Of a DNA stretch of 44,628 nucleotides, positions 3,990 through 33,399 are shown piece by piece. A program made the position numbers and the translations under genes. Source of the DNA: Candidatus Sabulitectum sp. GTDB taxonomy: Bacteria > Fermentibacterota > Fermentibacteria > Fermentibacterales > JCC-6. Positions within the stretch are counted from its first letter, which is position 1, and the number at the start of each line of letters is the position of its first letter. The notes beneath the pieces were generated by a model. It had not been told where the DNA came from. It ran no database searches and worked only from the letters and a program-made list of their open reading frames with translations. The stretch spans positions 1 to 44,628 of the forward strand of contig JAIOSV010000074.1 in assembly GCA_021107435.1 (NCBI GenBank), given 5' to 3'.

Positions 3990-4129
3990 GAGTGGTCTTC
4001 CTTTCTTAATTTAGCACACAAACAATTTCATGCGCCACATTCAAAAGCAATTGATGTGCCAGAGAGCTATCCTGTTATCAATAAACAATATGATGAAATT
4101 CATGGAAATACGGAATTGATCTTTTGGGG

Positions 4130-4238: not shown

Positions 4239-7200
4239 ATGAAAACAGTAGAGATACAGAATATTTCCCTGAGAACCCACAGCTCCAGTGGAAGAACTCA
4301 CATAGAATTCACAGACCATCTTGGGAACAGGAGACTTGGCAGGATTCTTCCTGCGGGTACTCCTGTAAAGTATCTCAAAGGTTTGTATTCCCGCGTTGGA
4401 ACTTCAGCGGAAGTTATCATCCCCGATGGTATTTCGGAACTGACTGATGGAAGCAGATGCCTTTCAATCAGAACTGACAACCTGTCCCCTCTGGAAAGAG
4501 GTCAGAAGTTGGCCGAACTGGTAAAGCCGCTGCGAGTTCTTCACGAATCAGGAATGAATCACCTTTCCATAGATGAATACAGCTTCCGTCAGAGAGACGG
4601 AAACATCTCTCTGATCTTCTGGGGAGACGGTCTTCTGGCGGTTCATCCCGATGCTCCCTGTGAAGTTAGATCAGGCGGGATTCCGGGTGCTGCATCTGAT
4701 CTGTATATGCTTGCGGCGGCAGCCTTGCGATTAAACTGGTTTGTGGCACCCGGTGAAGTTGATAAAGCAAATGAGTTGTGCAGTGATAATGTACTGAAAA
4801 GGTGGAAAAATATTGGGAACTACGGATACGAGTCCGGAGTCCGGTTTAACCTTCAGCCGGTCCCGCCCAGACTGGGGTTTAACATCGTTCAGGGCGGAAG
4901 CTGGGAGGCTCGCGATCTGTATGTCAATCATCTCAGCAGCATTGCCTCAAAGAAAGGATGGACCAGCAGAATCATCCGTTTCGCCTCGGGGGAAAGGGGG
5001 CGCCCTTTACCGGATATGCCGGAGGGAACTCCCACTCACAGTCCGGGAGAACTGCTGAAGAATGCCTTCCCCGGTCAGGGAGGTATTGAGAAGCTACTGA
5101 TAATTCATGACTTCTCTGAGGATCAGGAGGATTTTACGGCTCTTCTCAGAGAGCTTTCGCGAATCATTCCATCCGGTCTTCGTCTGGTTCTGTGCGGAGC
5201 ATCCGTCCCCCCGGATTTTCAGGGACAGAGGATCTCACTGAGCGGTCCAATCAGTACCGCTGTTGACCTTCCTCTGGAAGATACTCCTGATAGCGCTGAA
5301 ATCCGTTCTGTCGGCTCCTCATGGTACGGCCCCAGGTGTCGGGTTTCCACAGAAGTTGCAAACGGAATTGACAAGCCTTTCCTCTCGGAAGAAATCCTGT
5401 TTAAAGAGGGAGCATGGAGATACACCACCGACCGACCTTGCCGGGGAAGTAACGACAGAATAGCTGAAAGTCTTTTCAAACTCGACAGATACACTGAAGC
5501 CCTCCAGTTTGTTTCAAAAAAGAACATGCCGCTGCGAGGCAGAATTCTTATGGCTCTGGGGAAATTCAATACAGCCGCGGAACTGCTTACGGGCAGCACA
5601 GAGATCGTACTCCTCGCGGAAGCGTATATGGGCCTTGGGGACATTCATAAAGCTCTTGATGTAATCAGGAGCTCTTCTGATCCGCTGTCACTTCCCCTCC
5701 GGGCAAGGCTGCACGACCTTTCAGGAACTCCGGCTTCCGCCCTTCAGCCTTTGAAAGAAGGGCTTAGAAAAGCCGGGGGCACTGATAAGATTGATATCTA
5801 CTGCGCACTCAGAAGTCTTGAAATGCGCCTGGGAGCCCATGAGGATGCTTTGAAACATGCAGAATCAGCCGTTGCTATGGCTCGCGGGCTGGCAAGCGTT
5901 CCTCATCTGGTCAAGAGCCTTCAGGAGCGGGGGCGGACGCTGCAGGTTACCGGCAAATGGAAAAGAGCACTGGAAGACTACAGAACCGCTGTGCAATTCC
6001 ATGACGAAAGTGCCCTTTCGTTCACAAGGCCCCCCCACGTAGACATGTTCGTTCTGGAGTTGAAGATGGGCAACGTCTCCGCAGCCGGAGAAACAATGTG
6101 CAAACTGAAAAACTACTCAGCATCAGGGGGAATACTGCAGAAACAGATGCTGAACATGCTGGAGGCTTACAAAGGCGTACTGCTTGGAAACGGAGAAAGG
6201 GCTCTTCCCTTTGCTCTCAGGGCAGCCGAGCTGGCTGGCAGACACGATCTGGTACTCTACTTCGGGATAAGCACACTTTACGCCGGTCAGCTTTACATAC
6301 AGGCTGGAGACCACTCCAGGGGTATAGACCTTATCAAACAGGCACGATCCAGAGGTCATGTACTTGGAGACAGGCATCTCGTCTGTCTCACAGAGATAGA
6401 ACTGCTGCTGGATCAGGAAATGAGAAACCTTACAGAAAACGACATTGGCGATCTTGCGGGAGATTTGCCTGAAGAATCGGCTGCTCTGCAGATAATATCG
6501 GGAGCGAATAAAGAAGAGGGTTTCCGGCAGCTTCTCGCCCTCCCTTCGCCTCTGCTTGCCTGCAGGCTTGCTGAAAGCTGCGGTCTGCCTGACGACCCTC
6601 ATGAGAGAAAGCGCATTATTTGCTGGAGAAAAGACATACTGAATCAACTGAGTGAAAGAGAACGGAAAAACTATAATGGCCTGTTCGAAACAGAGTGGGA
6701 CGCTGTTTCTTCGAATCGATTTACCGAGCTTATGATTAACAACACGCTGGGAGTCGTTTCCAGCTGGATACAGAGCTACCTTGAAGGTGAATCATCTCTC
6801 TCTGATCTCGCGGAATCACTCAGTCTGAAAAAAATATCCATCACGGAAGATCAGGGAATGATTTCCGTCCCCGGAAGCAATCCTTTGTATTGCAGTGGCA
6901 CTGCTGCTCCGGAAGTAACTCCGTTTCTGGAGCCTGTAGCGGCAGTACTGGCGGCTGGACCTGCGGATAAGCAACTTCCCGGTAAAAAAGACAAACTGTC
7001 TGAGATGATAATCGGTAACTCCGGGGGAATGAGGAAGATAAGATTCGAACTGGAAAGGGTGGCATCTGAAAACGTTCCAGTTCTCATATCAGGAGAAACT
7101 GGAACCGGCAAGGAACTTTGTGCCAGAGCAATCCACATTGGAAGCAAAAGACAAGAAGGCAGCTTTGTGCCGGTAGATTGCGGAGCAATTCCCGAAGCTC

Positions 7201-7880
7201 TTATGGAATCAGAATTTTTCGGCGCAGCTCAGGGAGCCTATACCGGAGTAAACTATCCACGAAGAGGGCTTCTTGAGGAGGCTGACGGGGGCACCCTGTT
7301 TCTGGATGAAATAGGAAACCTTCCTCTGCATATGCAGGCAAAACTCTTGCGGGTACTGGATACTGGAATCTTCAGAAGACTGGGAGAAACTAGGCAGAGA
7401 AACACTGACTTAAGACTTGTGGCGGCCACAAACGCAGATGTGGAAACGCAGATAGCTCAAGGGTCTTTCAGGACTGATCTTTATTACCGGATATCTGTCG
7501 TCCGTATAAATCTGCCTCCTCTTCGGGACAGACTGGAGGATATTCCTCAACTGGTCTCGCACTTCACTTCAAAGAACCTCAGCAGAGGAGCTCTTGAGCT
7601 GCTTTCTTCTCACCAATGGCCCGGCAACATTCGTGAACTTTCCAACGCTCTAAAGAGAGCTTCAATAGCTTCCACCGGAAACACCATACAGAAGAGTCAC
7701 ATTTCATTCAACACAGTTGGGGGCGCAAGCGCAGAAACTTGTACCCTTCATGAAACAATCAGGATACATATAGTTAAAACTGTTGAATCCTTCGGCGGCA
7801 GCAGAACGAAAGCGGCAAAAGCACTAAAGTGTGACCCCAAGACGCTGAGGAAGTACCTTGCTGAAGATGAAATGCAGTAG
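4239..7880 (+). CDS. Sigma-54-dependent activator with pseudokinase-like N-terminus and TPR sensor region
   Basis: The protein has 1213 residues. Residues ~50-180 resemble a protein-kinase C-lobe with the catalytic residues gone: LHESGMNHLSIDEYSF where HRD would be, FWGDG for DFG, then an SDLYMLA helix. Residues ~210-320 look like a degenerate STAND-type ATPase. Residues ~385-800 are helical TPR-type repeats (ALGKFNTAAELL, AYMGLGDIHKAL, GKWKRALEDY). A sigma-54 AAA+ domain follows: Walker A GETGTGK from 952, sigma-contact loop GAYTGV at 999-1004 (consensus GAFTGA), Walker B D1023-E1024, and arginine finger R1078. A Fis-type HTH ends the protein. Hence it should be an active enhancer-binding protein controlled by a large sensor. 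The ATG follows GGAGG by 6 nt. It lies directly upstream of nfnAB and may regulate the redox cluster. Confidence 0.85.
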   Translation: MKTVEIQNISLRTHSSSGRTHIEFTDHLGNRRLGRILPAGTPVKYLKGLYSRVGTSAEVIIPDGISELTDGSRCLSIRTDNLSPLERGQKLAELVKPLRVLHESGMNHLSIDEYSFRQRDGNISLIFWGDGLLAVHPDAPCEVRSGGIPGAASDLYMLAAAALRLNWFVAPGEVDKANELCSDNVLKRWKNIGNYGYESGVRFNLQPVPPRLGFNIVQGGSWEARDLYVNHLSSIASKKGWTSRIIRFASGERGRPLPDMPEGTPTHSPGELLKNAFPGQGGIEKLLIIHDFSEDQEDFTALLRELSRIIPSGLRLVLCGASVPPDFQGQRISLSGPISTAVDLPLEDTPDSAEIRSVGSSWYGPRCRVSTEVANGIDKPFLSEEILFKEGAWRYTTDRPCRGSNDRIAESLFKLDRYTEALQFVSKKNMPLRGRILMALGKFNTAAELLTGSTEIVLLAEAYMGLGDIHKALDVIRSSSDPLSLPLRARLHDLSGTPASALQPLKEGLRKAGGTDKIDIYCALRSLEMRLGAHEDALKHAESAVAMARGLASVPHLVKSLQERGRTLQVTGKWKRALEDYRTAVQFHDESALSFTRPPHVDMFVLELKMGNVSAAGETMCKLKNYSASGGILQKQMLNMLEAYKGVLLGNGERALPFALRAAELAGRHDLVLYFGISTLYAGQLYIQAGDHSRGIDLIKQARSRGHVLGDRHLVCLTEIELLLDQEMRNLTENDIGDLAGDLPEESAALQIISGANKEEGFRQLLALPSPLLACRLAESCGLPDDPHERKRIICWRKDILNQLSERERKNYNGLFETEWDAVSSNRFTELMINNTLGVVSSWIQSYLEGESSLSDLAESLSLKKISITEDQGMISVPGSNPLYCSGTAAPEVTPFLEPVAAVLAAGPADKQLPGKKDKLSEMIIGNSGGMRKIRFELERVASENVPVLISGETGTGKELCARAIHIGSKRQEGSFVPVDCGAIPEALMESEFFGAAQGAYTGVNYPRRGLLEEADGGTLFLDEIGNLPLHMQAKLLRVLDTGIFRRLGETRQRNTDLRLVAATNADVETQIAQGSFRTDLYYRISVVRINLPPLRDRLEDIPQLVSHFTSKNLSRGALELLSSHQWPGNIRELSNALKRASIASTGNTIQKSHISFNTVGGASAETCTLHETIRIHIVKTVESFGGSRTKAAKALKCDPKTLRKYLAEDEMQ

Positions 7881-7930: not shown

Positions 7931-8053
7931 GATGCGTACTATTTCCCCGGCAAACATTGCTTCTGTGACGCTTTGGTGTTCCAGAGTAATGCTGACCGGA
8001 TGACGGACTTTGTTTCAGATACAGTCCACAATCTATCAATCGGAGGGCAATCC

Positions 8054-8920
8054 ATGCACAGAATCCTGTACAAAGAAACACTTGGCCCTGATGTCACTCT
8101 CTACAGACTGTACGCACCTGATGTGGCGGCGTACCGCAAACCCGGACAATTCGTCCTGATACGGATCTGCGATGAAGGAGAGAGGATACCAATAACGCTC
8201 GCGGATGTGGACCGTGATGAGGGAAGCATTACCCTCATTATACAATCTGTCGGAAAAACAACTCTGAAACTCGCTCAAATGGAAGTGGGTGACTCTATTC
8301 CCGATATCGCCGGACCACTGGGAAAAGCCACGCACATAGAAAAGGTGGGACATGTGCTGTGCGTTGGTGGAGGAATAGGTACTGCCCCCCTCTACCCGGT
8401 CGCTAAAGGCATGAAGGACATTGGTAACAAAGTAACAAGTATTCTCGGCGCAAGATCTGAAAATCTACTGATCCTTGAAGATAGAATGCGAGCGGTAAGT
8501 GACAAGGTAGTTATTACCACTGATGATGGTTCCAAAGGAAAAAAAGGGCTTGTCACAGACGCAATCAGCGAGCTTGTAGAGCAGGGCGAGAAGTTTGATC
8601 AGTGCATCTGCATGGGACCTCCCATTATGATGAAATTCGTCTGCCTGCTTACAAAGAAGCTGGGCATTCCAACCGTAGTAAGCCTGAACCCCATAATGGT
8701 AGACGGAACAGGCATGTGCGGTGGATGCCGGGTAACTGTGGGCGGCAAAACAAAATTCGCCTGCGTGGACGGACCGGAATTTGATGGTCACGAGGTTGAT
8801 TTTGATGAGATGATGGCTCGTCTCAACACCTACAAAATAGATGAGAGAATCTCCCTGGACCGTTACTCGGATGAAACCGGCTGCCGACTGGAAGCGTCGC
8901 TGAAAGGGGGAGCGAAATGA
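8054..8920 (+). CDS. nfnA: NADH-dependent ferredoxin:NADP+ oxidoreductase, small subunit (NfnA/SudB-like)
   Basis: The protein has 288 residues. It is the FNR-like subunit of the cytoplasmic NfnAB complex, which couples NADPH oxidation to reduction of NAD+ and ferredoxin, or the reverse. An FAD-binding barrel covers about residues 1-95 (GQFVLIRI, ERIPITLAD). The NAD(H) domain begins with VLCVGGGIGTAPLYP. Near residue 220 the Asp/Cys pattern DGTGMCGGCR, then FACVDGPEF, matches the unusual Asp-Cys3-ligated [2Fe-2S] site of NfnA. I chose the ATG at 8054 because GGAGGG lies 7 nt upstream; an in-frame ATG at 7973 has no such site. It overlaps nfnB by ATGA. Family assignment is firm; direction in vivo is inferred. 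Confidence 0.93.
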   Translation: MHRILYKETLGPDVTLYRLYAPDVAAYRKPGQFVLIRICDEGERIPITLADVDRDEGSITLIIQSVGKTTLKLAQMEVGDSIPDIAGPLGKATHIEKVGHVLCVGGGIGTAPLYPVAKGMKDIGNKVTSILGARSENLLILEDRMRAVSDKVVITTDDGSKGKKGLVTDAISELVEQGEKFDQCICMGPPIMMKFVCLLTKKLGIPTVVSLNPIMVDGTGMCGGCRVTVGGKTKFACVDGPEFDGHEVDFDEMMARLNTYKIDERISLDRYSDETGCRLEASLKGGAK

Positions 8921-10380
8921 AACCGGCGGAAAGACTGAAAATTCCCCCGACCTCCATGCCGGAACAGGATCCGAAGGAAAGAATACACAATGTGCGGGAA
9001 GTACCCCTCGGCTATACACCCGAAATGGCAATGGTGGAAGCACAAAGATGTCTTCAATGCAAGACTCCTTTCTGCATTGAGGGCTGCCCGGTGGGTATTG
9101 ATATTCCCGGGTTTATTCGTGCAATTGAACAGGGAGACTTCAGCGAGGGTGTACGGGTACTGAAACAGAAAAACCTCCTGCCGGCAGTATGCGGAAGAGT
9201 ATGCCCCCAGGAGGAACAGTGCCAGGCGGTCTGCGTTATTGGAAAGGCAAAGAAAGACCCCACAAAAGCAGTAATGATAGGCAAACTTGAGATGTTCCTG
9301 GCAGACTGGGAAAGAGAGCAGGGAGAACTCGCAATACCTCCGGAGGTCAAAAAAACCGGCAAAAAAGTGGCAGTCGTCGGAGGAGGCCCGGCCGGGCTTA
9401 CAGTTGCAGGAGATCTGATAAAATACGGGCACGATGTAACCGTCTATGAAGCTTTTCACAAAGCCGGTGGTGTGCTGGTATACGGCATCCCCGAATTCAG
9501 GCTGCCGAAAGCCATTGTGCAGTCGGAAGTGGATTACCTGGAAAAGCTCGGGGTAAAGTTCCGCTACAATTTTATTGTTGGAAAAACAGCCCCTGTCGCG
9601 AAAATTGTGGATGAAAACGACGCCGTTTTCATCGGAACCGGAGCAGGATTGCCCAGATTTATGAGAGTAGAGGGAGAGAACCTGCTGGGTGTTCTTTCGG
9701 CAAACGAGTATCTCACCAGGGCAAATCTCATGAAAGCTTACAGTTTCCCTCAATCCGACACACCCATTGCAAAGGGAAGAACAGTTATTACCGTTGGCGG
9801 TGGAAATGTGGCAATGGACTGCGCGAGAACCGCGCTGAGAATGGGGGCAGAGCGGTCTCTCATAGTATACAGAAGGGCGGAAAAGCAGATGCCCGCAAGG
9901 CTTGAAGAGGTTCACCACGCAAAAGAAGAAGGGGTTGAATTTCATCTGCTGAACAATCCTGTACGACTGATCGGTAACGATAAGGGGTGGATAACCGGTG
10001 CCGAGCTTATCAGAATGGAACTTGGAAAACCGGATGCTTCCGGCAGAAGACGCCCCATTGCCATAGAGGGTTCAGAATATGTTATGGAGACTGACATACT
10101 GATAGTGGCCATAGGCAACAGCCCCAATCCTCTCGTTCCCAGCTCCTACCCGGAACTCGATGTGACAAGCTGGGGCGGAGTTATTGTAAACGAGGTAACA
10201 GGTCAGACTTCCGTTCCAGGAGTATTCGCGGGCGGTGATATAGTCCTTGGAGCAGCCACTGTTATTCTTGCGATGGGTCACGGCAGACGAGCGGCCAGAG
10301 CAATGAATCTGTACCTGTCCTCGGGACGCTGGACAGATCTTGAGGACGGTCTTGAGCTGTGCAGGGCGGAAGTACGTTAA
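8917..10380 (+). CDS. nfnB: NADH-dependent ferredoxin:NADP+ oxidoreductase, large subunit (NfnB/GltD-like)
   Basis: The protein has 487 residues. It is the bifurcating FAD subunit of NfnAB. The N-terminal region holds two [4Fe-4S] motifs: CLQCKTPFCIEGCPVGIDIP, and LPAVCGRVCPQEEQCQAVC. Next come the FAD-binding GGGPAGLTVAGDL and the NADP-binding GGGNVAMDCARTALRMG, with a C-terminal GVFAGGDI flavin loop. Length and motif order match NfnB and stand-alone GltD-like proteins. The preceding nfnA, overlapping by 4 bases, settles the NfnB assignment over glutamate synthase small subunit; no gltB-like gene is present. A related GltD module is built into the large fusion subunit 3.5 kb downstream. Confidence 0.93.
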   Translation: MKPAERLKIPPTSMPEQDPKERIHNVREVPLGYTPEMAMVEAQRCLQCKTPFCIEGCPVGIDIPGFIRAIEQGDFSEGVRVLKQKNLLPAVCGRVCPQEEQCQAVCVIGKAKKDPTKAVMIGKLEMFLADWEREQGELAIPPEVKKTGKKVAVVGGGPAGLTVAGDLIKYGHDVTVYEAFHKAGGVLVYGIPEFRLPKAIVQSEVDYLEKLGVKFRYNFIVGKTAPVAKIVDENDAVFIGTGAGLPRFMRVEGENLLGVLSANEYLTRANLMKAYSFPQSDTPIAKGRTVITVGGGNVAMDCARTALRMGAERSLIVYRRAEKQMPARLEEVHHAKEEGVEFHLLNNPVRLIGNDKGWITGAELIRMELGKPDASGRRRPIAIEGSEYVMETDILIVAIGNSPNPLVPSSYPELDVTSWGGVIVNEVTGQTSVPGVFAGGDIVLGAATVILAMGHGRRAARAMNLYLSSGRWTDLEDGLELCRAEVR

Positions 10381-10465: not shown

Positions 10466-11452
10466 TTGAAGGGCCGAGTACTCATAATAGACGATGAGGC
10501 TGAAATCCGCAGAAATCTCACCTTCGGTCTCACCCAGGAAGACTATTCCGTAGTGGCATGCCCCGATGGGATATCAGCAATACATGAACTCAACCAGTCC
10601 AGAAACAAAGGACTCGCATACGATTACCTGATAACGGATATCTTCATGCCTGATATTGACGGGCTGAAAATACTGAAGGTGATAAAAAACCAGTATCCTG
10701 ATCTTCCAGTACTTGTGATTACCGGCTTCGGAGACGAAAGGTTGATGATGACCGCCCTTGCTGAACACAACACAGGCTTTCTGAATAAACCCTTCGAGAT
10801 TCCGGAACTTGTCAGTGCTCTCGAGGAACTTACCCCTGGAAAAACAGCAACAGATCATGTCGGAGAACAGATTGATGATGGCATGCGGGAATCCATAAGC
10901 GCGTATCTCACAATAAAAATTACGGATTCAGAGAACAGCATGGAAATCTTCGACAAACTCTACGCAATGCCCGGCATCCAGTCATGCGATGCAGTTCGGG
11001 GAGATTTCGATGTTGTCCTTCTGGCTCAGGCGGAATCAGCCGCTGGAATAGAAGAAGTGTTTGACACGATAAAAGCCATTGAGGGTATTCAGGTTCTTTC
11101 CCTGTCACAGGTGGAGCGTCCCAAACTGGATCGGGATGTGGATCAGTTCATAGACACCTATCAGAAAGCGGTCAAACAGGAAGCCCAGGCCGGGGCAAGA
11201 AGACAACCCGGATCAATGAGCTACATCATTGTGGATATTGATCCTGATTCAATTCAGCAGATATTCACTACAGTGTTCTTCATTGACGAAGTTCTCGTCT
11301 GCGATGTTATCGAAGATGGAACCAAACTTGTGGGAATGATTACCGGCCATGGCGCAGTAGGCAGAACTCCCAGAATAATCGAAAAACTCAGCCAGATCGA
11401 CGGAGTGCTTCGAGTCAGAGAGGCCAGAGTAATAAAGCTTATAGACGACTGA
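10466..11452 (+). CDS. Response regulator receiver fused to two AsnC/RAM-like ligand-binding domains
   Basis: The protein has 328 residues. A CheY-type receiver occupies ~1-125: acidic pair in IIDDEAE, phospho-acceptor Asp in LITDIFMPDIDG, Thr in VITGFGD, and Lys in LNKPFEIPE. A region of ~75 residues resembling Lrp/AsnC RAM domains follows (AYLTIKITDSENSMEIFDKLYAMPGI, then GDFDVVLLAQ and IEGIQVLSLS). A second ~80-residue alpha/beta domain with similar rhythm closes the protein (MSYIIVDIDPDS, KLVGMITG, IDGVLRVREARVIKLI). No DNA-binding domain is visible. Translation starts at TTG 10466, fixed by GAGGAGG 6 nt upstream. Its place between nfnAB and the NuoEF-like genes suggests a non-transcriptional or protein-partner control role, by inference. 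Confidence 0.75.
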   Translation: MKGRVLIIDDEAEIRRNLTFGLTQEDYSVVACPDGISAIHELNQSRNKGLAYDYLITDIFMPDIDGLKILKVIKNQYPDLPVLVITGFGDERLMMTALAEHNTGFLNKPFEIPELVSALEELTPGKTATDHVGEQIDDGMRESISAYLTIKITDSENSMEIFDKLYAMPGIQSCDAVRGDFDVVLLAQAESAAGIEEVFDTIKAIEGIQVLSLSQVERPKLDRDVDQFIDTYQKAVKQEAQAGARRQPGSMSYIIVDIDPDSIQQIFTTVFFIDEVLVCDVIEDGTKLVGMITGHGAVGRTPRIIEKLSQIDGVLRVREARVIKLIDD

Positions 11453-11521: not shown

Positions 11522-11540
11522 TGTGGTTGTGAAGGGAGTG

Positions 11541-12047
11541 ATGAAAACGGCTGCCAAGAAGGAAAGTTTCAACTACAGACTCTGGAGGTATGATGGCGCA
11601 CCGGGGGAATTGATACCTCTTCTGCAATCTGCCCAGGAGCATTTCGGATACATCCCCAGACGAGCCATTACCTACATCTCAGGAGTTACAGCGATTCCCG
11701 AATCCGATATATACGGTGTTATTACTTTTTACAGCCAGTTCAGGCTTCAACCCATGGGCAAGTTTGTTGTCAGAGCCTGCGCGGGAACCGCCTGCCATGT
11801 CTCGGGGGCTAAAGCGATTATAGATACCATTGAGGACGAACTGGGAATTGAAGTGGGAGACACATCGGAAGACGGTCTTTTCACATTCCTCACAGTTGCC
11901 TGCATCGGTTGCTGTTCTCTTGCCCCTGTAATGATGATCAATGATGACACTCACGGCCGTCTTACTCCGGCATCCCTGCGAAAAATACTTAAAAAATACC
12001 GCAGGGAAGGGAAAGACAGTGCTGAAGGCGCAGTTGGTGTATCCTGA
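11541..12047 (+). CDS. NuoE/HydC-like [2Fe-2S] subunit of an electron-bifurcating NADH complex
   Basis: The protein has 168 residues from the ATG at 11541. A GTG at 11523 in the same frame is an alternative start, since AAGGGAG lies only 2 nt before the ATG. It is a thioredoxin-fold ferredoxin of the NuoE/HydC (BfuC) family. The helical N-terminus reads LIPLLQSAQEHFGYIP, typical of the family. The four [2Fe-2S] cysteines are in RACAGTACHVSGA and VACIGCCSLAP. The subunit passes electrons between the NuoF-like flavoprotein and other clusters. It is followed after 35 bp by the NuoF-like gene, matching the usual order in HydABC-type operons. Confidence 0.9.
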   Translation: MKTAAKKESFNYRLWRYDGAPGELIPLLQSAQEHFGYIPRRAITYISGVTAIPESDIYGVITFYSQFRLQPMGKFVVRACAGTACHVSGAKAIIDTIEDELGIEVGDTSEDGLFTFLTVACIGCCSLAPVMMINDDTHGRLTPASLRKILKKYRREGKDSAEGAVGVS

Positions 12048-12082
12048 TGATGATCACACAGAAATTTCCAGGGAGCAGATAG

Positions 12083-13864
12083 ATGAAGAAGATAATTGTT
12101 GGAATGGGAACCTGTGGTCTTTCCGCCGGAGCTCAGCCTGTATACGACAGGCTGAAAGTCCTGGTGAAAGCACATCCGGAAGCCTGCGAACTTGATATTA
12201 CCGGGTGCATAGGCATGTGTTTCCGTGAACCGCTGGTGGAAATTCAGGATGATACGGGAAGAACCATATACGGAGATGTATCTGCTGAGTTCGTTGATGA
12301 AATATTTAAAGACCATGTTTTAAATGACAGAAGAATTGACGACGAAAGAATTATCTACGGAGTCAATCATGATGGAACGACTTTCGGCTCCGAGGCGGCA
12401 TTTCTTGATCTTCAGGAAAGAATAGTACTCAGAAACTGTGGTATCATCAACCCCGAATCCATTGATGACTATGAAGGAATCGGTGGCTATCAGGGATTGA
12501 AAACAGCTCTCACTGAAATCACTCCTGAAGAAATCATTCAGACTATGAAGGACTCCGGACTCCGCGGAAGAGGCGGCGCGGGATTCCCGACCGGTCTTAA
12601 ATGGTCATTCGCCGCGTCAAACAAAGGTGACACCAAGTATGTTGTCTGCAATGCCGATGAAGGTGATCCCGGCGCATTTATGGATCGCTCAGTTCTTGAA
12701 GGCGACCCCCATGCAATTCTTGAAGGTATGATTATCTGCGGAAAAGCCATAGGTGCCGGATTCGGATATATTTACTGTCGTGCGGAATATCCCCTGGCCA
12801 TCGCCAGACTTGAAAAAGCAATAGCTGCTGCCAGAACAAAGGGATACCTGGGTAAAAACATCTTCAATTCAGGTTTTGATTTTGATCTCAAGATCAAGCA
12901 GGGTGCCGGTGCTTTTGTCTGCGGTGAGGAAACAGCCCTTTTCGCCTCCATTGAGGGCGAGAGAGGCATGCCTCGCATCCGCCCCCCGTTCCCTGCGGAA
13001 AAAGGGCTCTGGCAGAAACCCACCAACAATAATAATGTGGAAACCTTTGCCAATGTGCCATGGATAATCACCAACGGAGCAAGCGCATACTCATCCATCG
13101 GCACAACAAAAAGCCCCGGCACAAAAGTGTTTGCCCTTGCGGGCAAAGTAGCCAAGGGTGGTCTTGCTGAAGTCCCCATGGGCACCTCGATTGAACAGCT
13201 TGTTTTCAGTATTGGTGGCGGTATCAAGGACGGAGGAGTATTCAAGGCTGTCCAGATGGGCGGTCCGTCCGGCGGATGTATTCCCGCCAGTCTTAAACAT
13301 ACACCTGTGGACTTCGAGTCTATTCCCGCCACCGGAGCTATCATGGGCTCAGGCGGTATGGTGGTTATGGATCAGGGAACCTGCATGGTTGGAATTGCGA
13401 AATTTTTCCTTGATTTCACCCAGAGCGAGTCCTGCGGCAAGTGTACTTTCTGCCGGATTGGAACTCTGAGAATGCTTGAGATCCTTGAGCGAATCACCAG
13501 GGGCGAGGGTGTTCCCGAGGATATTTCAAAACTGGAAAAACTGTCAATACAGATCAAGGAAGCGAGTCTGTGCGGACTGGGCCAGACTGCGCCAAACCCC
13601 GTACAGACAACAATCCGCTACTACCTTGATGAGTACAGGGCGCACATAGAAGACAAAAAATGCCCCGCCGGGGAATGTGAAGCTCTGGTAGACTTCATAA
13701 TCATCCCCGAAAAGTGCGTGGGATGCACCCTTTGTGCCAGAAACTGTCCCGTGGATGCCATCACCGGGAAAGTTAAGGAAGTTCACATCATTGACCAGGA
13801 AAAATGTGTCAAGTGTGGCAAGTGCATAACAAGCTGCAACTTCAATGCAGTAGTGAAACGTTAG
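12083..13864 (+). CDS. NuoF/HydB-like FMN, NAD(H)-binding subunit of an electron-bifurcating complex
   Basis: The protein has 593 residues, the length of HydB/BfuB-type subunits rather than the shorter respiratory NuoF. An N-terminal thioredoxin-like [2Fe-2S] domain (VGMGTCGLSAGA, DITGCIGMC) has only three obvious cysteines in the usual places. The FMN/NAD site has LRGRGGAGFPTGLKW (~158-172) and NADEGDPGAFMDRSVLEGDPH. SCGKCTFCRIGT (~450) with SLCGLGQ binds the NuoF [4Fe-4S] cluster. A 2[4Fe-4S] ferredoxin tail (CVGCTLCARNCPVDA, CVKCGKCITSC; ~544-590) is the signature of bifurcating rather than complex-I members. ATG at 12083 follows AGGGAG. Its reading frame ends 8 bases before the giant subunit, implying one complex. 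Confidence 0.92.
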   Translation: MKKIIVGMGTCGLSAGAQPVYDRLKVLVKAHPEACELDITGCIGMCFREPLVEIQDDTGRTIYGDVSAEFVDEIFKDHVLNDRRIDDERIIYGVNHDGTTFGSEAAFLDLQERIVLRNCGIINPESIDDYEGIGGYQGLKTALTEITPEEIIQTMKDSGLRGRGGAGFPTGLKWSFAASNKGDTKYVVCNADEGDPGAFMDRSVLEGDPHAILEGMIICGKAIGAGFGYIYCRAEYPLAIARLEKAIAAARTKGYLGKNIFNSGFDFDLKIKQGAGAFVCGEETALFASIEGERGMPRIRPPFPAEKGLWQKPTNNNNVETFANVPWIITNGASAYSSIGTTKSPGTKVFALAGKVAKGGLAEVPMGTSIEQLVFSIGGGIKDGGVFKAVQMGGPSGGCIPASLKHTPVDFESIPATGAIMGSGGMVVMDQGTCMVGIAKFFLDFTQSESCGKCTFCRIGTLRMLEILERITRGEGVPEDISKLEKLSIQIKEASLCGLGQTAPNPVQTTIRYYLDEYRAHIEDKKCPAGECEALVDFIIIPEKCVGCTLCARNCPVDAITGKVKEVHIIDQEKCVKCGKCITSCNFNAVVKR

Positions 13865-13872
13865 GGGCATCA

Positions 13873-16800
13873 ATGGACATGATAAAACTTAAAATCAACG
13901 GACAGGAAATCGAGGCCGCTCCGGGAAAAACCATCCTGGAGGTGGTACGAGAAAACAATCTGGATGACATACCAACTCTGTGTCACTCACCCGAGTTGAA
14001 ACCATACGGCTCCTGCTTTGTCTGCGTTGTGGAGGTAAAGGGCAGAAAAAACCTTGTCCCATCCTGCGCAACCAGCATTGCTCCAAACATGGAGGTGGAG
14101 ACAAGAAACGAAAGAATCCTCGACTCCAGAAAAACTGCTCTGGAACTGCTTCTTTCCAACCACTATGCCGACTGCGTCTCACCCTGCCTGGAAGGGTGTC
14201 CTGCAAATGTGGACGCTCAGGGATACATCGCCCTTTCAGCCATGGGGGAACTCCAGCAGGCAATTGACCTGATCCGCGAGAAGAACCCTCTTCCGGCGGT
14301 TTGCGCAAGAGTCTGCGTAAGGAAATGCGAGGATGTCTGCCGAAGAATGGACGTAGACACCCCGGTGGCCATCAACAACATCAAGCGTTACCTTTCTGAT
14401 GCTGACAACGCTTATGCAACTGAACCGGAATGCCTTCCCTCTACGGGAAAAACAGTGGGAATTATAGGTGCCGGTCCGGCAGGACTGACCGCTGCCTGGT
14501 TCCTGGGGAAACAGGGTATCAAACCTGTTATCTACGAGGCGATGGAGCGAACGGGGGGAATGCTCAGGTACGGCATTCCAGAGTACAGACTTCCCGATGA
14601 TGTCATGGACAAGGAAGTTGAATACATTAAAAAAGTTGGTACAGAGATCAACTGCGGAGTCAGAATAGGTACTGACATCTCTCTGGACGAGCTGAGAGGC
14701 AGGCACGACGCGCTTTTCCTGGCCGCAGGTGCCTGGACAGGCAAAGCAATGCGGGTTGAAGGCGAGTTTGACACTGAGGGTGTCGTAACAGGTGCAGACT
14801 TCCTGCCTGAAAAGGTGGATAATCCCGAGCCCATCAAGGGAACTGTTGTGGTAGTCGGAGGCGGTAACACCGCCATGGATGCCGCAAGAACCTCATGGCG
14901 TCTTAACGCCGACAAGGTGATTGTTCTTTACAGAAGAACCAGAGCACAAATGCCTGCTGACAAAATGGAGATTGTGGATCTCCTTGAAGAGGGCATTGAG
15001 CTTATGGAACTGGCTGCGCCTGTGGGAATTGTCCGGGAGAACGGCAGACTCAAAGCTCTCAGATGTCAGCGAATGAAACTGGGAGAGCCCGATGCTTCAG
15101 GCAGACGCCGTCCGGTACCTCAGGAAGGCTCGGAATTTGAGCTTCCATGCAATCTTGTGATCTCCGCCATAGGCCAGAACACGATTCTCAATGGTCTCAC
15201 GAAGATCGAGACCGGCGAAGTTGAACTCACCAGGTGGAACACCTATGTTGTGAACACAAAAACCATGGAAACCAGTATTGAGGGTGTATTCGCGGGAGGC
15301 GATGCTGCCGATGACGGACCCACGGTTGCAATTGATGCGATCAGAGACGGTCAAAGAGCAGCAAAGTCTATGACGGCATGGCTTTCAAACGAAAAGATAA
15401 CACCTGAGCCATTTGTGGTTCGCAAGGAATTCTGGGCAAAACCCGGGAAAACCGAACTGGGAGAAATCAAGGAATCCACAAGGCACGAGCTTCACACCAT
15501 TGATGTAGAGGAAAGACGGAACAGCTTTCGGGAGGTTGCCACCGGATTTGACCCTGAAGACAACGAGCATGAGACAGACAGATGTCTCTCATGCGGATGC
15601 GTCCGTTTTGATGACTGTGACCTCCGACTCTACGCTGAAGAATACGGCGTGGACATGGAAGAATTCAAGGGACATGTGCGTAAACACAAAGTAGACGACA
15701 GGCATCCCTACATTGTATACGATCCCAACAAATGTGTTCTCTGCGCCAGATGCGTCAGAACATGCGCCAGAGTTCTTCCCATACCTGCTCTTGGTCTGGT
15801 AGGACGAGGCTTTAAGACTGAGATGCGCCCGGCCATGAACGATCCACTTGTTGAAACAAGCTGTATCAGTTGCGGTAACTGCGTTGATGCTTGCCCCACA
15901 GGCGCTCTAACCATGAAGTACCCCTTCAGCGGCAGAGCCTGCCTGGACACGGAGGATATAAAAACCCACTGCGCTTTCTGCTCCATCGGCTGTGAAATAA
16001 CCGTAAGAAGCTTTGGAGATCAGCGCTACTTCATCAAATCCAATGGTGAACCGGGAGACTACCTCTGCCGCTATGGAAGGTTCGGTAACGAGCTTTTCAT
16101 CAAGCAGAGCAGAATGAAGAATCCTGTTATCAGAAAGGGCAGCTCCAGCAAGGCAGTTGATCAGGACACTGCCAACGAAGTGATAGTAAAACTGATGAAA
16201 AGGGCAGCTGAAGAATTCGGCGCAGGCAAAGTTGCCGTGTTCATCTCTCCGGAACTCACCAACGAGGAATTCTACCTGGCATCCGAAATAGCCAGAGCTG
16301 GAATCGGCACCAACAACATCGGCTCACTTGCTATCATCAGTGGCGGCGGACGATCCGGTGTGCTGGACAAAGCCTTCGGCTTCACAGCATCCACCTCAGA
16401 CAAGAAATGCCTCACCAATGCCGATCTGATAATCTGCAACAACACAGCACTTGAAGATGACCATCTGATCCTTGCAGTTGATGTTATTCAGAGAGTCAAG
16501 GATGGAGCAAAGCTGATAGTAGCCAACTCAACCCTTGCCAACTCCGACCAGCACCTGGCAACCCTGGCGGTTGACCCCATGCGGGGCAGAGCATCCTTCT
16601 TCTGGAATGCTGTGATGCAGGAACTGATGGACAGGGGAGTAATCTCCCCGGACAGTATCACCGGACGAGACGAATTCCTGGAAAACAGAAACATCTCAAT
16701 CGACACGGCCGCTGCGAAAGCCGGTGTCGAGACTGAGGACATTCTTAAAGCAGCTGAACTCATTATGAATGCAGGCAGAATTGTCATTGTACACAGCCCT

Positions 16801-17538
16801 GACAGGCCCCAGGACGCTGCTCCCGAGGACATTGAGATCTTTGCGGACCTCACTCTTATGCTTAAAGAGGCAGAAAAACAGACTGACATTCTCCTGCCAA
16901 GGCTTATAGCCAACACTGCGGGCCTTGAGGTTATGGGTGCTGATCCTGCTTTCCTTACAGGCCGCGTACCAGTTGGGGAGAATGCTCTTCCGGGAGCAAA
17001 GACCAGCCGGGAACTCAGAAAACTTCTTGAGGAAGGCACGATCAAGGCTGCTTTCATAATAGGAGAGAATCCGCTGGACTTCAGTAGAACCGGCTCCTGG
17101 TTCCAGAACTGCCAGTTCATTGCGGCAATGGACTGGACAGACACAGAAACAACAATGGCGGCAGATGTTACTCTTCCCGGCTCAACCTACCTTGAAACAC
17201 CGGGAACCAGATGCAACTACGAAGGCAATGTGATCTGCTTCAACGGAGCAGTTCCCCCCGCCTGCGGCAGAACCGGCAGAGAGGTTCTGGAATCACTGGC
17301 AGCAGCTTTCGGCCTCAACCCGAATGAATCTCCGGATGAACTGATCCGGGAAAAGCTCGGTGACATGGTCCGCTTCTACTGGAACACCGGCGAGGAAAGA
17401 AACTGGGACGGCAGAGGAACTCTTGTGCCCATTACTCTGGGCGGAAAAGCTTCTTCGATACAACCACCGCTGACCCACAGCCAGCAGTATCGCAAGGACA
17501 TAAGAGAGGTCGGAACAGAACGGTTCCGCGTCCTCTAA
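13873..17538 (+). CDS. Fused NuoG-ferredoxin / GltD-like flavoprotein / molybdopterin-fold subunit
   Basis: The protein has 1221 residues. Order: NuoG-type [2Fe-2S] domain (~1-80; CHSPELKPYGSCFVC, LVPSC); a Cys-rich linker (DCVSPCLEGCPANVDAQGY) merging into a GltD/NfnB-like module (~110-505; GAGPAGLTAAWFLG, GGGNTAMDAARTSWRL); a DRCLSCGC motif; a 2[4Fe-4S] ferredoxin (CVLCARCVRTCARVL, CISCGNCVDACPTGAL); then a molybdopterin-oxidoreductase fold with [4Fe-4S] ligands C700, C703, C707 and C732. Aligned on GTNN, the formate-dehydrogenase Cys/Sec-His pair is Ser823-Gly824, so the last domain resembles inactive NuoG. With the NuoE/NuoF-like partners it probably forms an NAD(P)-linked bifurcating or confurcating enzyme. 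ATG 13873 follows AGGGG; ATG 13879 is possible. The true reaction is unknown. Confidence 0.85.
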   Translation: MDMIKLKINGQEIEAAPGKTILEVVRENNLDDIPTLCHSPELKPYGSCFVCVVEVKGRKNLVPSCATSIAPNMEVETRNERILDSRKTALELLLSNHYADCVSPCLEGCPANVDAQGYIALSAMGELQQAIDLIREKNPLPAVCARVCVRKCEDVCRRMDVDTPVAINNIKRYLSDADNAYATEPECLPSTGKTVGIIGAGPAGLTAAWFLGKQGIKPVIYEAMERTGGMLRYGIPEYRLPDDVMDKEVEYIKKVGTEINCGVRIGTDISLDELRGRHDALFLAAGAWTGKAMRVEGEFDTEGVVTGADFLPEKVDNPEPIKGTVVVVGGGNTAMDAARTSWRLNADKVIVLYRRTRAQMPADKMEIVDLLEEGIELMELAAPVGIVRENGRLKALRCQRMKLGEPDASGRRRPVPQEGSEFELPCNLVISAIGQNTILNGLTKIETGEVELTRWNTYVVNTKTMETSIEGVFAGGDAADDGPTVAIDAIRDGQRAAKSMTAWLSNEKITPEPFVVRKEFWAKPGKTELGEIKESTRHELHTIDVEERRNSFREVATGFDPEDNEHETDRCLSCGCVRFDDCDLRLYAEEYGVDMEEFKGHVRKHKVDDRHPYIVYDPNKCVLCARCVRTCARVLPIPALGLVGRGFKTEMRPAMNDPLVETSCISCGNCVDACPTGALTMKYPFSGRACLDTEDIKTHCAFCSIGCEITVRSFGDQRYFIKSNGEPGDYLCRYGRFGNELFIKQSRMKNPVIRKGSSSKAVDQDTANEVIVKLMKRAAEEFGAGKVAVFISPELTNEEFYLASEIARAGIGTNNIGSLAIISGGGRSGVLDKAFGFTASTSDKKCLTNADLIICNNTALEDDHLILAVDVIQRVKDGAKLIVANSTLANSDQHLATLAVDPMRGRASFFWNAVMQELMDRGVISPDSITGRDEFLENRNISIDTAAAKAGVETEDILKAAELIMNAGRIVIVHSPDRPQDAAPEDIEIFADLTLMLKEAEKQTDILLPRLIANTAGLEVMGADPAFLTGRVPVGENALPGAKTSRELRKLLEEGTIKAAFIIGENPLDFSRTGSWFQNCQFIAAMDWTDTETTMAADVTLPGSTYLETPGTRCNYEGNVICFNGAVPPACGRTGREVLESLAAAFGLNPNESPDELIREKLGDMVRFYWNTGEERNWDGRGTLVPITLGGKASSIQPPLTHSQQYRKDIREVGTERFRVL

Positions 17539-17552
17539 AAGATCAGAAGTAC

Positions 17553-17582
17553 AAGGGCGTCTGCTTTATCGCAGGCGCCCTT
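17553..17582 (+). terminator. Terminator hairpin after the bifurcating-complex operon
   Basis: AAGGGCGTCTGC (17553-17564) pairs with GCAGGCGCCCTT (17571-17582), 12 bp with one T-G wobble and a 6-nt loop, 14 bases after the stop of the giant subunit. The following CTACTATTT is only weakly T-rich. It marks the end of the redox operon and the start of the decayed region. Confidence 0.65.
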
Positions 17583-29859: not shown

Positions 29860-30064
29860 ATGCACTCCTTTCATAATAGTAGTTTACTTCATTTCCCTGC
29901 CGTTTTCAAGTGCTGATTAAAAGCGGAATAATTCCAAACTGCCGGGGCACCTGCTTACTGCTAACAATCTTTCATAACAACAATGTGTGCTTGACGATAG
30001 TCAACAATTGTAGCATTTAAGAAAGTTGAATTTATCGAATATCTCTGAATTCAGAGGGAGCACT

Positions 30065-32041
30065 ATGATTAGTCTTGATGATCTCTATTCACTCATCGAA
30101 AGCACTTTTGATTTTCTTCTGGTGGTTGATAACAATGAAAAGATTCACTATGTGAGTCCCCTGATGAAGAATATCTGTTGCGCTCACGGCTCCGATGTTA
30201 TCGATAAACACCTGAAGGAACTGCTGGATAAAAGCTCTCTTAATTCCTTCAGAAACGCCATGAAAAAGGTGAGTCACGGTGGCCGCGGAGTGCTTGCTGT
30301 TTTTTCCAGAGGTACTGTCGATTCCATCCCGATACCAATGAAGGTAGCTTATACCAAAAGTGTAACGGGCGGATTCTATCTGATCTTCGGTAAACAGGTT
30401 GATTCTCTAAGGAAGATGGATGACTGGGAAAAGGCAGAGAGGGTGAAAGAGCTTTCCTGTCTCTATGCAGTAGCAGAATGGATAGAGGCTTCTACTACTA
30501 TTAAAGACTTCTTCACCAAGCTTCCGCCGTTCCTTGCACAGGGAATGCGTTTCCCCGAGGAAGCAACAGTCTATTCTATCTATCAGGGAATTGAGTACGG
30601 CCAGAAACCTGTCGTCAAAGCGTTTATAGATGTTAAACTCTACATAAGCGGCGAAATGAAGGGTGAGATAAAGGTCGGCTACATAAATGATGAAAAGGAT
30701 CTGCTCCCTGAAGAGTGGAAAATGATGAAGCAGATCGGAAGAATGCTGAGCCTGGCCCTTGAGCGCAAGGAACTCTCGGAAAATATCGCCATGAAACAGG
30801 GAGAAGAAGAGGAGTTCAGCAGACGACTTACAGATCTGGAAGAGAAGATTGCCACCAGGGAATCCGAACTTAAATCCCAGAAGCATAAACTCAAAACTGT
30901 AGATTCCTATCTGAGCAGAGTCAATGAAACCATGGACGAAAGCAGCAGAAGGTTCGAAACCATGTTCAAAGCCATTCCAGACAAGGTTCTCATGATAGGC
31001 CTTAACCGGGATGTGGTAATGAGCAACCGGGATACTATAAAACCCGGAGAAAAGTGTTTTCGCGCATGCTTCAACCGGGAAACTCCCTGCGTGGACTGCC
31101 GACTCTCGAAGATAGTAAAAAACAAGATTCCAATAACTGTTACATTCAGAGATGAGGATAGGTATCTGGAAGTACATGCCCTTCCTGTTTTCAATAAGAA
31201 CGAGGAAGTTGAAGGCATAATGGAGTTCTACCGGGATGTTACTCTTGAAAAAACATACGAGCAGCAGATCCAGCAGGCAGACAAGCTGGCTTCACTGGGG
31301 CAGCTTGTCAGCGGCATTGGCCATGAGATCAACAATCCGAATCAGTTCATTCGGGGAAACATCAAGATAGTCAAGCAGGCTCTGGATGATATGCTGCCCA
31401 TAGTCGATGAATATCAGAAGACACACCCTGATCTTAAGATTGCCCGACTGAAATACGCTTTTTTCAGAGAACACATAATGACTCTGGTTGATGACATGGG
31501 GCACGGATCGGAAAGAATTAAAGGAATTGTAGAGGGCCTCAGAGGCTTCGCCCGCAAAGATGACGGTCTTCTTGTGGACAATGTTGATATCAATACCCTT
31601 ATTTGCGCCACTCAGAGGCTTGTTCAGAACGAAGTCCACAAACACGGAGAGATGCAGCTTGATCTCTCGGAGAATGTTAAGCTCTTCCCGGGTAACTCTC
31701 AGAAAATCGAACAGGTGCTGGTGAATCTGATAGTCAACGCCGCCCAGGCCATACCGGACGACAGGAAGGGCCTCATCACTGTAAGCTCCTCAATGGATAA
31801 AGAGACAGTTGTTGTAGAAATTGAGGATAACGGGAAAGGCATGGATGAAAAAACTCAGAGACAGATTTTCGACCCCTTCTTTACAACAAAAAGATCCAAG
31901 GGTGGAACGGGGCTTGGTCTTGCCATTACCTACAGAATAGTTGAGGAACACGGGGGAAGCATATCTGTAACCAGTAAATCAGGCACCGGTACGAAATTTA
32001 CCATCAGAATCCCCGTAACCGGGAGCAGGGAGAACAGATGA
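30065..32041 (+). CDS. PAS-containing sensor histidine kinase (cytoplasmic)
   Basis: The protein has 658 residues. ATG 30065 follows GAGGGAG by 5 nt; an upstream ATG at 30026 lacks a site. No transmembrane segment is seen. Domains: PAS (~1-110), a GAF-like region (~125-240), a coiled coil (~245-300), then a second PAS (~300-400) carrying C-x3-C-x6-C-x2-C (GEKCFRACFNRETPCVDC), which could bind a metal or cofactor. The HisKA box GIGHEINNP has phospho-acceptor H420. HATPase motifs are NLIVNAAQAI, DNGKGMD, FFTTK and GGTGLGLAI. It overlaps the response-regulator gene by 4 bases, so the two are a cognate pair. Confidence 0.9.
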   Translation: MISLDDLYSLIESTFDFLLVVDNNEKIHYVSPLMKNICCAHGSDVIDKHLKELLDKSSLNSFRNAMKKVSHGGRGVLAVFSRGTVDSIPIPMKVAYTKSVTGGFYLIFGKQVDSLRKMDDWEKAERVKELSCLYAVAEWIEASTTIKDFFTKLPPFLAQGMRFPEEATVYSIYQGIEYGQKPVVKAFIDVKLYISGEMKGEIKVGYINDEKDLLPEEWKMMKQIGRMLSLALERKELSENIAMKQGEEEEFSRRLTDLEEKIATRESELKSQKHKLKTVDSYLSRVNETMDESSRRFETMFKAIPDKVLMIGLNRDVVMSNRDTIKPGEKCFRACFNRETPCVDCRLSKIVKNKIPITVTFRDEDRYLEVHALPVFNKNEEVEGIMEFYRDVTLEKTYEQQIQQADKLASLGQLVSGIGHEINNPNQFIRGNIKIVKQALDDMLPIVDEYQKTHPDLKIARLKYAFFREHIMTLVDDMGHGSERIKGIVEGLRGFARKDDGLLVDNVDINTLICATQRLVQNEVHKHGEMQLDLSENVKLFPGNSQKIEQVLVNLIVNAAQAIPDDRKGLITVSSSMDKETVVVEIEDNGKGMDEKTQRQIFDPFFTTKRSKGGTGLGLAITYRIVEEHGGSISVTSKSGTGTKFTIRIPVTGSRENR

Positions 32042-33399
32042 TGAAAAAGGTTCTGATAGTAGATGATGATGTTGCAGTAACCAATTACTTCATGGTCTTT
32101 CTTATGCAGACTGAGAGATTTGAGTCTACTGTAATAAATGACTCCAGAAAGGTGGAGAACCTTCTGGAGAAGGAAATTTTTGATGTAGTAATGCTTGACC
32201 TGGACATGCCGAATGTCAGCGGCATCGACATACTCAACATGATGCAGGCTAAAAACATCTCAGTACCGGTTATCATTCTTACCGGGGCAAATGATGTTGA
32301 CCTGGCCGTAAAAAGCATGAAACGGGGAGCCTTCGACTACCTGACCAAACCTGTTGATGATGAGCATCTTATAGAAGTGCTCGATAGTGCCGTTGAACAC
32401 GGCGCCATGAGTAAGAGAATAATAAAACTTGCAGATACCTTCACCCAGGAAGAACTGAAAGACAGAAAAGATTTTGAACATCTTCCCACAAATAATCCGG
32501 ATATGATTCGCCTTTTTCACAACGCTGAGAAAGTGGCAAAATCTGATCTCAGCATTTTCATCTGGGGGGAACAGGGCACTGGAAAGGAGAGTCTGGCAAG
32601 AGCAATTCACCAGGCAAGCCTGAGAATTGAGGGACCATTCATCGCTGTGGACGGCGCTGCTCACAGGAAGGAGGACTTCTCATCCGAGCTCTTCGGCAGA
32701 GCAAAGGACTGGAGCGGCAAGCACGACGAGAAACTGGGATTTATTGAGGCTGCTTCAGGGGGAACTCTTTTCATAGACAACATTGACTGTCTGGGGCTGC
32801 CCGCTCAAGCCAGGCTGAAAAGAGTAATCCAGAACTCGGAATTCTACAGAGACAACTCCACTGAGATAAAGAAAAGCGATGTGCGGATAATTGTATCATC
32901 AACCAGAGATCTCACAAGCTCTCAGTATCGTGACACATTTTCCCGTGACCTTCTTTATCATCTGATGGTAAACTCAATAAAAATACCGCCGCTCCGGGCA
33001 AGAGCTGAAGACATTCCCCTGATTGTTGATTACTTCCTGAAGATGGAACTGGCCAGGGTGGACAGGGGAAACGCGAATTTGTCAGTCTCAAGCGAATTAA
33101 TGGATATGCTTGTGCAATACAGCTATCCGGACAATGTTCAGGAACTGCAGACCATCATCGCCTGCGCAGTAGTTGGAACAGAAAATGGTGCTATAACATC
33201 CGACTCTCTCTCTCCCTACATCAGAGAACGGATAACACCCGGAGAGGCAGCAGGAGACTTTACCCCGGCATTGCTCCGCGATGTCATGACAAATCATATT
33301 GAAAGAACCGTCAAGTACTGCGGAGGGAACATGAACCAGGCCGCAACACTTCTCGGTATTTCAGTTGATGAAGTAAATGATCACATAGAGAATAACTGA
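32038..33399 (+). CDS. NtrC-like response regulator with degenerate AAA+ domain
   Basis: The protein has 453 residues. The receiver (~1-120) is complete: IVDDD, phospho-Asp in VVMLDLDMPN, Thr in ILTGAND, Lys in YLTKPVDD. In the AAA+ domain Walker A is intact (GEQGTGK from 177). The GAFTGA sigma-54 loop is missing: ELFGRAKDWSGKHDEK occupies it. Walker B reads FIDNID, with Asn248 replacing the catalytic Glu. A Fis-like HTH is recognisable at the end (GGNMNQAATLLGISVDEVND). It should therefore be unable to activate sigma-54 polymerase and may act as a repressor or a sigma-70-type regulator. It is encoded with the kinase just upstream (ATGA overlap). Confidence 0.88.
   Translation: MMKKVLIVDDDVAVTNYFMVFLMQTERFESTVINDSRKVENLLEKEIFDVVMLDLDMPNVSGIDILNMMQAKNISVPVIILTGANDVDLAVKSMKRGAFDYLTKPVDDEHLIEVLDSAVEHGAMSKRIIKLADTFTQEELKDRKDFEHLPTNNPDMIRLFHNAEKVAKSDLSIFIWGEQGTGKESLARAIHQASLRIEGPFIAVDGAAHRKEDFSSELFGRAKDWSGKHDEKLGFIEAASGGTLFIDNIDCLGLPAQARLKRVIQNSEFYRDNSTEIKKSDVRIIVSSTRDLTSSQYRDTFSRDLLYHLMVNSIKIPPLRARAEDIPLIVDYFLKMELARVDRGNANLSVSSELMDMLVQYSYPDNVQELQTIIACAVVGTENGAITSDSLSPYIRERITPGEAAGDFTPALLRDVMTNHIERTVKYCGGNMNQAATLLGISVDEVNDHIENN

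Follow-up and report, generated by a model that had tools for sequence, protein, structure and literature searches.

Which enzyme is encoded by three adjacent genes on a contig of Candidatus Sabulitectum sp., and is its architecture new? The contig (JAIOSV010000074.1) was analyzed over its positions 1 to 44,628, referred to here as the window. The initial annotation had proposed a three-gene bifurcating complex, composed of a NuoE/NuoF pair and a 1221-residue fusion of NuoG-, NfnB- and FdhF-like modules, and had named no characterized enzyme with this layout. At the predicted place, three tandem open reading frames (ORFs) were found on the plus strand (11523/11541-12047, 12083-13864 and 13873-17538), and the ORFs, their Pfam domains and their solved homologues agree with the proposed complex. 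The first gene, stnA (11541..12047), belongs to an ORF that begins with GTG at 11523, while the ATG proposed earlier lies at 11541. Its product is NuoE/HydC-like and contains a 2Fe-2S_thioredx domain; homology, Pfam and conserved Cys residues point to one [2Fe-2S] cluster. On the same grounds, stnB (12083..13864) was assigned to a NuoF-like protein of 593 amino acids, in which Complex1_51K and NADH_4Fe-4S are followed by a C-terminal Fer4 tail, predicted to hold two [4Fe-4S] clusters. The eight extra Cys residues of this tail are those of a bifurcating-type NuoE/NuoF pair, as had been suggested. In the product of stnC (13873..17538; 1221 amino acids), Pfam detected Fer2_4 (residues 2-79), Fer4_20 (101-179), Pyr_redox_2 (195-493), a Fer4-type domain (612-680) and Molybdopterin (747-1130). 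This order means that an NfnB/GltD-like flavodomain, presumably binding FAD and NADP(H), is flanked by ferredoxin modules, the first a [2Fe-2S] domain and the second carrying NuoG-type clusters, and that the chain ends in an FdhF-like domain, here with S823-G824. The fusion had thus been described correctly.

StnA, StnB and StnC each had chains of the same three complexes, 8OH5, 9BOV and 9N5U, as their top three solved matches, with values far beyond chance (StnC: 9bov_A 3.6e-237, 8oh5_C 7.4e-215, 9n5u_A 4.8e-169; StnB: 8oh5_B 3e-249, 9bov_B 1e-248, 9n5u_B 3.2e-237; StnA: 9n5u_C 4.1e-50, 9bov_C 2e-47, 8oh5_A 8.5e-47). 8OH5 represents Stn from Sporomusa ovata (PMC10482914), a transhydrogenase that was purified in 2020 (PMC7483475) and solved by cryo-electron microscopy in 2023 (PMC10482914). 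Its StnC has been described as a GltD-like domain fused to a NuoG-like protein whose C-terminus is formed by an FdhF-like domain without catalytic activity (PMC7483475). Since S. ovata StnABC already has the identical architecture, along with a measured activity and a structure (PMC7483475, PMC10482914), the claim of novelty fails. The tandem arrangement of NuoE-like, NuoF-like and GltD/NuoG fusion genes is a feature of Stn, which has also been assigned to the Bfu family under the name Nfn-Bfu (PMC9304861). Judged by homology, it is very probable that the window genes encode StnA, StnB and StnC of this known electron-bifurcating transhydrogenase. Architecture, gene order and the conservation of ligands and key residues were established here, and the window protein would perform the same reaction as its S. 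ovata counterpart. The exchange of electrons between NADH and NADPH/ferredoxin, which the initial annotation had considered, agrees with the homology to Stn and with the coupled activity measured in S. ovata. The locus thus represents a well-supported Stn member in a little-sampled clade. StnC had 67 matches in NCBIfam; the best 25 all stayed below the cut-off, and Stn was not named in any of these.

Compared with the S. ovata enzyme (Sporomusa-type Nfn; 8OH5, 8OH9), the window complex shares gene order, StnC domain order, clusters, the Lys and Arg near the flavin and the inactive-type FdhF-like domain, while the StnC chains differ in length (1172 versus 1221 amino acids). The best StnC match, 9BOV/9BP5, was deposited as a molybdopterin oxidoreductase; its chain of 1178 amino acids aligned over 2-1152. 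No paper on 9BOV was found in the literature search. A near-identical row of our StnC comparison, L125, matched the 9BOV chain with 2623.8 bits over 1176 residues, so that the StnC tree presented below contains a solved relative. 9BOV is an enzyme of the sister group; its row L125 and the window protein share 37% identity over aligned columns. 9N5U is probably Nfn-Bfu of Thermococcus sibiricus. This enzyme shares the three-subunit plan but possesses a 963-residue chain with a shorter C-terminus and fewer cluster Cys residues, and its NADPH-dependent reduction of ferredoxin took place only with NAD+ (PMC9304861). In the electron-bifurcating [FeFe] hydrogenase HydABC, HydB and HydC are the counterparts of StnB and StnA, whereas HydA has the H-cluster in place of the GltD/FdhF parts. 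NfnAB (5JCA, 4YLF) has the overall reaction in common with Stn, and its NfnB fold is embedded in StnC. By contrast, NfnAB is described as having two subunits, bifurcating at its own FAD and carrying Glu, not Lys, at the proximal cluster (PMC10482914). StnC, with Lys171 at this position and StnA and StnB in place of an NfnA partner, does not belong to this type.

Residues were compared in 80 StnC rows (45 window-like rows, the window included, and 35 sister rows), 85 StnB rows and 82 StnA rows. A first StnC set, from which rows with less than 90% coverage or less than 44% identity had been left out, comprised 43 rows; L153, L155 and L156 were omitted as duplicates of L038, L029 and L027. In an alignment read by eye, K170, R239 and C114 of S. 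ovata StnC correspond to K171, R239 and A115 of the window protein. R239 was present in all 80 rows and K171 in 79 (45/45 window-like, 34/35 sister rows, with His in L148), and this Lys of the FAD-proximal cluster together with the Arg is a further mark of Stn. The cluster Cys residues tested, from C37 to C732, were kept in 45/45 window-like rows and, position 144 excepted, in every sister row reaching the region.

For the FdhF-like domain, the Ser-Gly at residues 823-824 had been read as a substitution of the Cys/Sec-His pair that classical formate dehydrogenases carry. The sequence and an alignment with the solved formate-dehydrogenase-type chain YjgC (8rqz_C) support this reading: in the phmmer alignment, inspected by eye, S823 lies opposite a Cys of YjgC which we take to be the catalytic one, the next YjgC residue being Gln and not His. 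In the window clade the catalytic column contained Ser in 22 rows, Gly in nine, Glu in five, Cys in four, Ala in two, Leu and Val in one each and a gap in one. Relatives with Cys/Sec-His at this site, which the initial annotation had regarded as decisive against a dead domain, did not appear, as His at 824 occurred in 0/80 rows, six of which have a gap there. The Cys-His dipeptides of five StnC rows sit at other positions. One might still think of a formate-oxidizing Mo/W complex of the Fdh-Bfu type, its active site built from other residues, since the domain retains the FdhF fold together with the Cys residues of its [4Fe-4S] cluster (C700, C703, C707, C732) and Cys occupies the catalytic column in 5/80 rows (L054, L064, L065 and L157 among the 45, L122 among the 35), none of them followed by His. 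The Cys/Sec-His expected at the Mo/W site of Fdh-Bfu is replaced in the window by S823-G824, and the domain itself is missing from the sister chains L149, L150 and L151 (691-711 amino acids) and reduced to a short remnant in L154, whose genome (G033) belongs to the same family as the window. For S. ovata, the domain has been described as inactive (PMC10482914, PMC7483475) and as required for correct assembly of the complex (PMC10482914). A formate-oxidizing enzyme is therefore extremely improbable, and the FdhF-like domain is best read as a structural remnant, predicted to be inactive as in Stn. The lengths of the short StnC open frames L149, L150, L151 and L154 range from 691 to 805 amino acids.

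The length of this domain also bears on the alternative that the window enzyme, like NsoABC of Thermococcus litoralis, acts mainly as NADPH-dependent sulfur/oxygen reductase, with a secondary transhydrogenase reaction. NsoC is the same GltD and NuoG fusion and shows 40.6% identity to S. ovata StnC (PMC7483475). However, the FdhF-like domain is present at full length in the window protein, whereas a partial one lacking the Cys for cluster C2 has been predicted for NsoC (PMC10482914), and Kremp et al. suggested that Nso itself may be a transhydrogenase (PMC7483475). Hence, a primary function as sulfur or oxygen reductase is very unlikely, and the assignment to Stn is preferred.

Contigs were scanned with peptide patterns from the window's own StnC, a procedure that favours close relatives. 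As the initial annotation had recommended, the same fusion and gene order were looked for in other genomes, and StnC relatives are represented here by the window-like and the 35 sister rows. The closest loci came from metagenome-assembled genomes (MAGs) of Candidatus Sabulitectum and Fermentibacteraceae; the organism names used here are the titles of MAG records and may be wrong for single contigs. StnC was detected at E <= 1e-150 in 31 of 36 genomes searched of the window's family, its own genome included, which possesses one full StnC and five Complex1_51K genes in all. The four other Complex1_51K (NuoF-type) genes are located on contigs C17, C67, C90 and C93; at the C17 and C93 loci there are StnB-like neighbours with 55-57% identity and NuoG/HydA-like partners. 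The sister group comprises 35 loci from 34 genomes, namely 33 of the 74 matching genomes (398 searched) and G036. Its phylum would be Bacillota, according to a genome record titled 'Clostridia bacterium'. A maximum-likelihood tree of StnC (quick method, 79 rows, L152 with 489 amino acids left out) separated 45 window-like from 34 sister rows by one branch with support 100; the long branch of L154 was flagged by the tree program as possibly misplaced. Over aligned columns, the window StnC is 53-92% identical to members of its own clade and 33-46% identical to sister rows. The tree places it in a deep clade apart from the enzymes of the Clostridia phylum. The analysis settles the identity of the complex and widens the range of Stn to uncultured groups that have received little study (Fermentibacterota, Krumholzibacteriota, Eisenbacteria and others) and whose clade is separate from the solved enzymes.

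Several points weigh against the assignment to Stn. The biochemistry of Stn comes from enzymes outside this clade, and a long branch lies between the clade and the 35 sister-group rows, to which the window StnC is only distantly similar (the 33-46% given above). The Cys residues in the catalytic column are a weak point of this kind. With a complete NfnAB encoded alongside, a further enzyme catalysing this reaction would seem superfluous. Finally, C114 of S. ovata, whose exchange for Ala halved the activity (PMC10482914), is Ala in the window (14215-14217) and Cys in just 4/45 rows of its clade (28 Ala, 10 Val, 3 Ile), compared to 23 Cys, 8 Ile, 2 Val and 2 Ala in the sister rows. This second-shell Cys is thus mostly absent from the window clade, which instead contains an invariant Cys144 (45/45 rows; window 14302-14304), four residues ahead of a likely ligand; 33/35 sister rows have Ile, Val or Leu there. 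A strict rule by which Cys115 and Cys144 replace each other was rejected, as both occur in 4/80 rows and neither in 10/80, and the rows are related. The deviating surroundings of the FAD-proximal cluster (A115, C144) and the adjoining NfnAB-type pair could mean that bifurcation has been lost and that the complex does no more than transfer electrons between NADPH and either NAD+ or ferredoxin, leaving bifurcation to NfnAB. Against this, the core of StnAB is kept. In StnA, C86, C91, C127 and C131 (numbered from the 11523 ORF), which the family suggests as [2Fe-2S] ligands, were found in 82/82 rows. In StnB, each of the C-terminal residues C545/548/551/555 and C575/578/581/585 was present in 85/85 rows, the window included, as were the thioredoxin-like N-terminal C42 and C46, with C11 in 84/85; both Cys groups are typical of Stn. 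A loss of bifurcation is accordingly most unlikely, and a bifurcating Stn enzyme remains the favoured interpretation.

For S. ovata Stn, reaction, cofactors, structure and mutants were established experimentally (PMC10482914, PMC7483475), including a coupled NADPH/NAD+/ferredoxin activity, about 42 Fe and FAD, and the loss of the coupled activity in the enzyme without the StnA cluster (PMC10482914). By homology to the steps shown or proposed there, NADP(H) would react in the window enzyme at the FAD of the GltD/NfnB-like insert in StnC, from where electrons may travel within StnC via the Lys-ligated proximal cluster and then the NuoG-type clusters, and reach the FMN of StnB, the presumed site of NAD(H). 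Ferredoxin would be served by the StnA and StnB [2Fe-2S] clusters together with the pair of [4Fe-4S] clusters at the C-terminus of StnB. Bifurcation would take place in StnAB and not at the StnC flavin, and the FdhF-like domain would have an assembly role and no part in catalysis. In the cell, the reaction probably runs towards NADPH formation from NADH and reduced ferredoxin.

The separate NfnAB mentioned in the initial annotation was located directly upstream, at 8054-10380 on the plus strand. The ORF of the nfnA-type (NfnS) gene starts at 7973, with a probable ATG at 8054 after GGAGGG (8054..8920), and is followed by the nfnB-type (NfnL) gene (8917..10380). The pair matched solved NfnAB (4ylf_B 4.8e-171, 5jca_S 7e-102), and Glu125 of NfnL, placed by eye, sits where StnC has Lys171. 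Of the 35 window-like loci with sufficient DNA upstream, 19 contained NfnAB, on the opposite strand in L054, and the examined DNA of the other 16 lacked it; NfnL occurred in 27/36 genomes of the window's family. In acetogens, Stn and Nfn have been described as almost mutually exclusive, with Clostridium carboxidivorans and Clostridium magnum as exceptions (Kremp et al., PMC7483475). Owing to these exceptions, co-occurrence as such was already known; a report on the adjacency of NfnAB and Stn genes was not found in the literature searched. Together with the linked regulatory genes described below, the arrangement raises the question why two bifurcating transhydrogenases lie side by side in some anaerobes and whether these organisms possess a dedicated redox-balance sensor.

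A less ordinary property of the locus is its conserved signalling neighbourhood, which lies outside the segment 11541-17538 considered initially. Directly upstream of stnA, a gene with a TTG start (10466..11452, plus strand) encodes a protein of 328 amino acids with a receiver and an AsnC-type (RAM) domain. Both domains occurred in all 38 members of its family; the conserved C-terminal part had no Pfam match and a DNA-binding domain was not recognized. All 38 members carry D58, K108, T86, D9 and D10, for which reason the receiver looks phosphorylatable. One of the 38 also matched the TM1266-like family, named iron-only hydrogenase system regulator (E 0.0015). The receiver-RAM gene was located directly 5' of stnA in 42/42 window-like loci with enough DNA, at a distance of 3-152 nucleotides (relatives include L047:5607-6599, L052:117-1106 and L054:5670-6650), and was detected in 0/35 sister loci at E <= 1e-8. 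Four loci were inspected because of apparent exceptions: L163, L164 and L165 show the same gene order up to the contig end, and L166 breaks inside the gene. A universal link is contradicted by G033, in which StnC, the divergent row L154, occurs without a receiver-RAM gene. The gene was detected in 36/42 genomes of the window's phylum and, together with Stn, under nine record labels (Fermentibacterota, Krumholzibacteriota, Eisenbacteria, Spirochaetales, Spartobacteria, Acidobacteria, Elusimicrobia, Aminicenantes, UBP1). The available text of the S. ovata Stn papers makes no mention of a linked receiver-RAM gene.

Further downstream, the window contains genes for a histidine kinase with PAS domains (30026..32041) and an NtrC-type sigma-54 response regulator (32038..33399), both on the plus strand. 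They were the best matches of a kinase-regulator pair located 3' of stnC in other lineages (for example L047:12687-15806 and L037:11919-15256), to which they are orthologous. Among 37 loci with at least 2300 bases downstream of stnC, the window included, the kinase gene was found within 400 nucleotides of stnC on the same strand in 16, anywhere in the examined DNA in 29 and not at all in 8; in the window the distance is 12.5 kb. At E <= 1e-130, the kinase was detected in 32/42 genomes of the window's phylum. Its His433 and the PAS-region residues C344, C355 and C358 were kept in 30/30 rows; C348, the second Cys in the PAS motif, lacks such conservation (2/30 rows). The literature searched, which did not include most subscription papers, showed no connection of two-component genes with Stn or Nfn. 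It is possible, although rather doubtful, that StnABC provides the enzymatic component of a cassette dedicated to redox signalling and consisting of receiver-RAM, stnA, stnB, stnC, the PAS/Cys kinase and the NtrC-type sigma-54 activator, in many cases accompanied by NfnAB. The receiver-RAM protein might then act by binding a nucleotide or the enzyme itself, and might report the NADPH/NADH/ferredoxin balance or set it. The linkage of the signalling genes was observed directly, and their functional coupling to Stn would follow from it by conjecture.

Upstream of nfnAB, a gene for a sigma-54 activator with TPR repeats, in which a receiver was not found, is located at 4239..7880 (plus strand) and also adjoins nfnAB in L163 and L166 of the same genus. 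A sigma-54 promoter before the nfnAB, receiver-RAM and stn genes was not found, as patterns with up to two mismatches occurred at chance level (28 compared to a mean of 25.76 in shuffled sequences). The sole exact -24/-12 match (4046-4061, minus strand) lies 57-72 nucleotides before another gene, the ORF at 3441-3989 (minus strand). Directly 3' of stnC, a terminator-like stem of 12 pairs (17553..17582, plus strand) was the longest of the scan, although the region as a whole did not contain more such stems than shuffled sequences. A short ORF at 18030-18590 (minus strand), with a DUF1016 N-terminal domain and the first part only of a YhcG PDDEXK nuclease domain, is probably a gene remnant. Type IX secretion C-terminal sorting domains were detected in the products of 680-2065 and 22478-24277 (both minus strand), the second of which also contains FG-GAP repeats.

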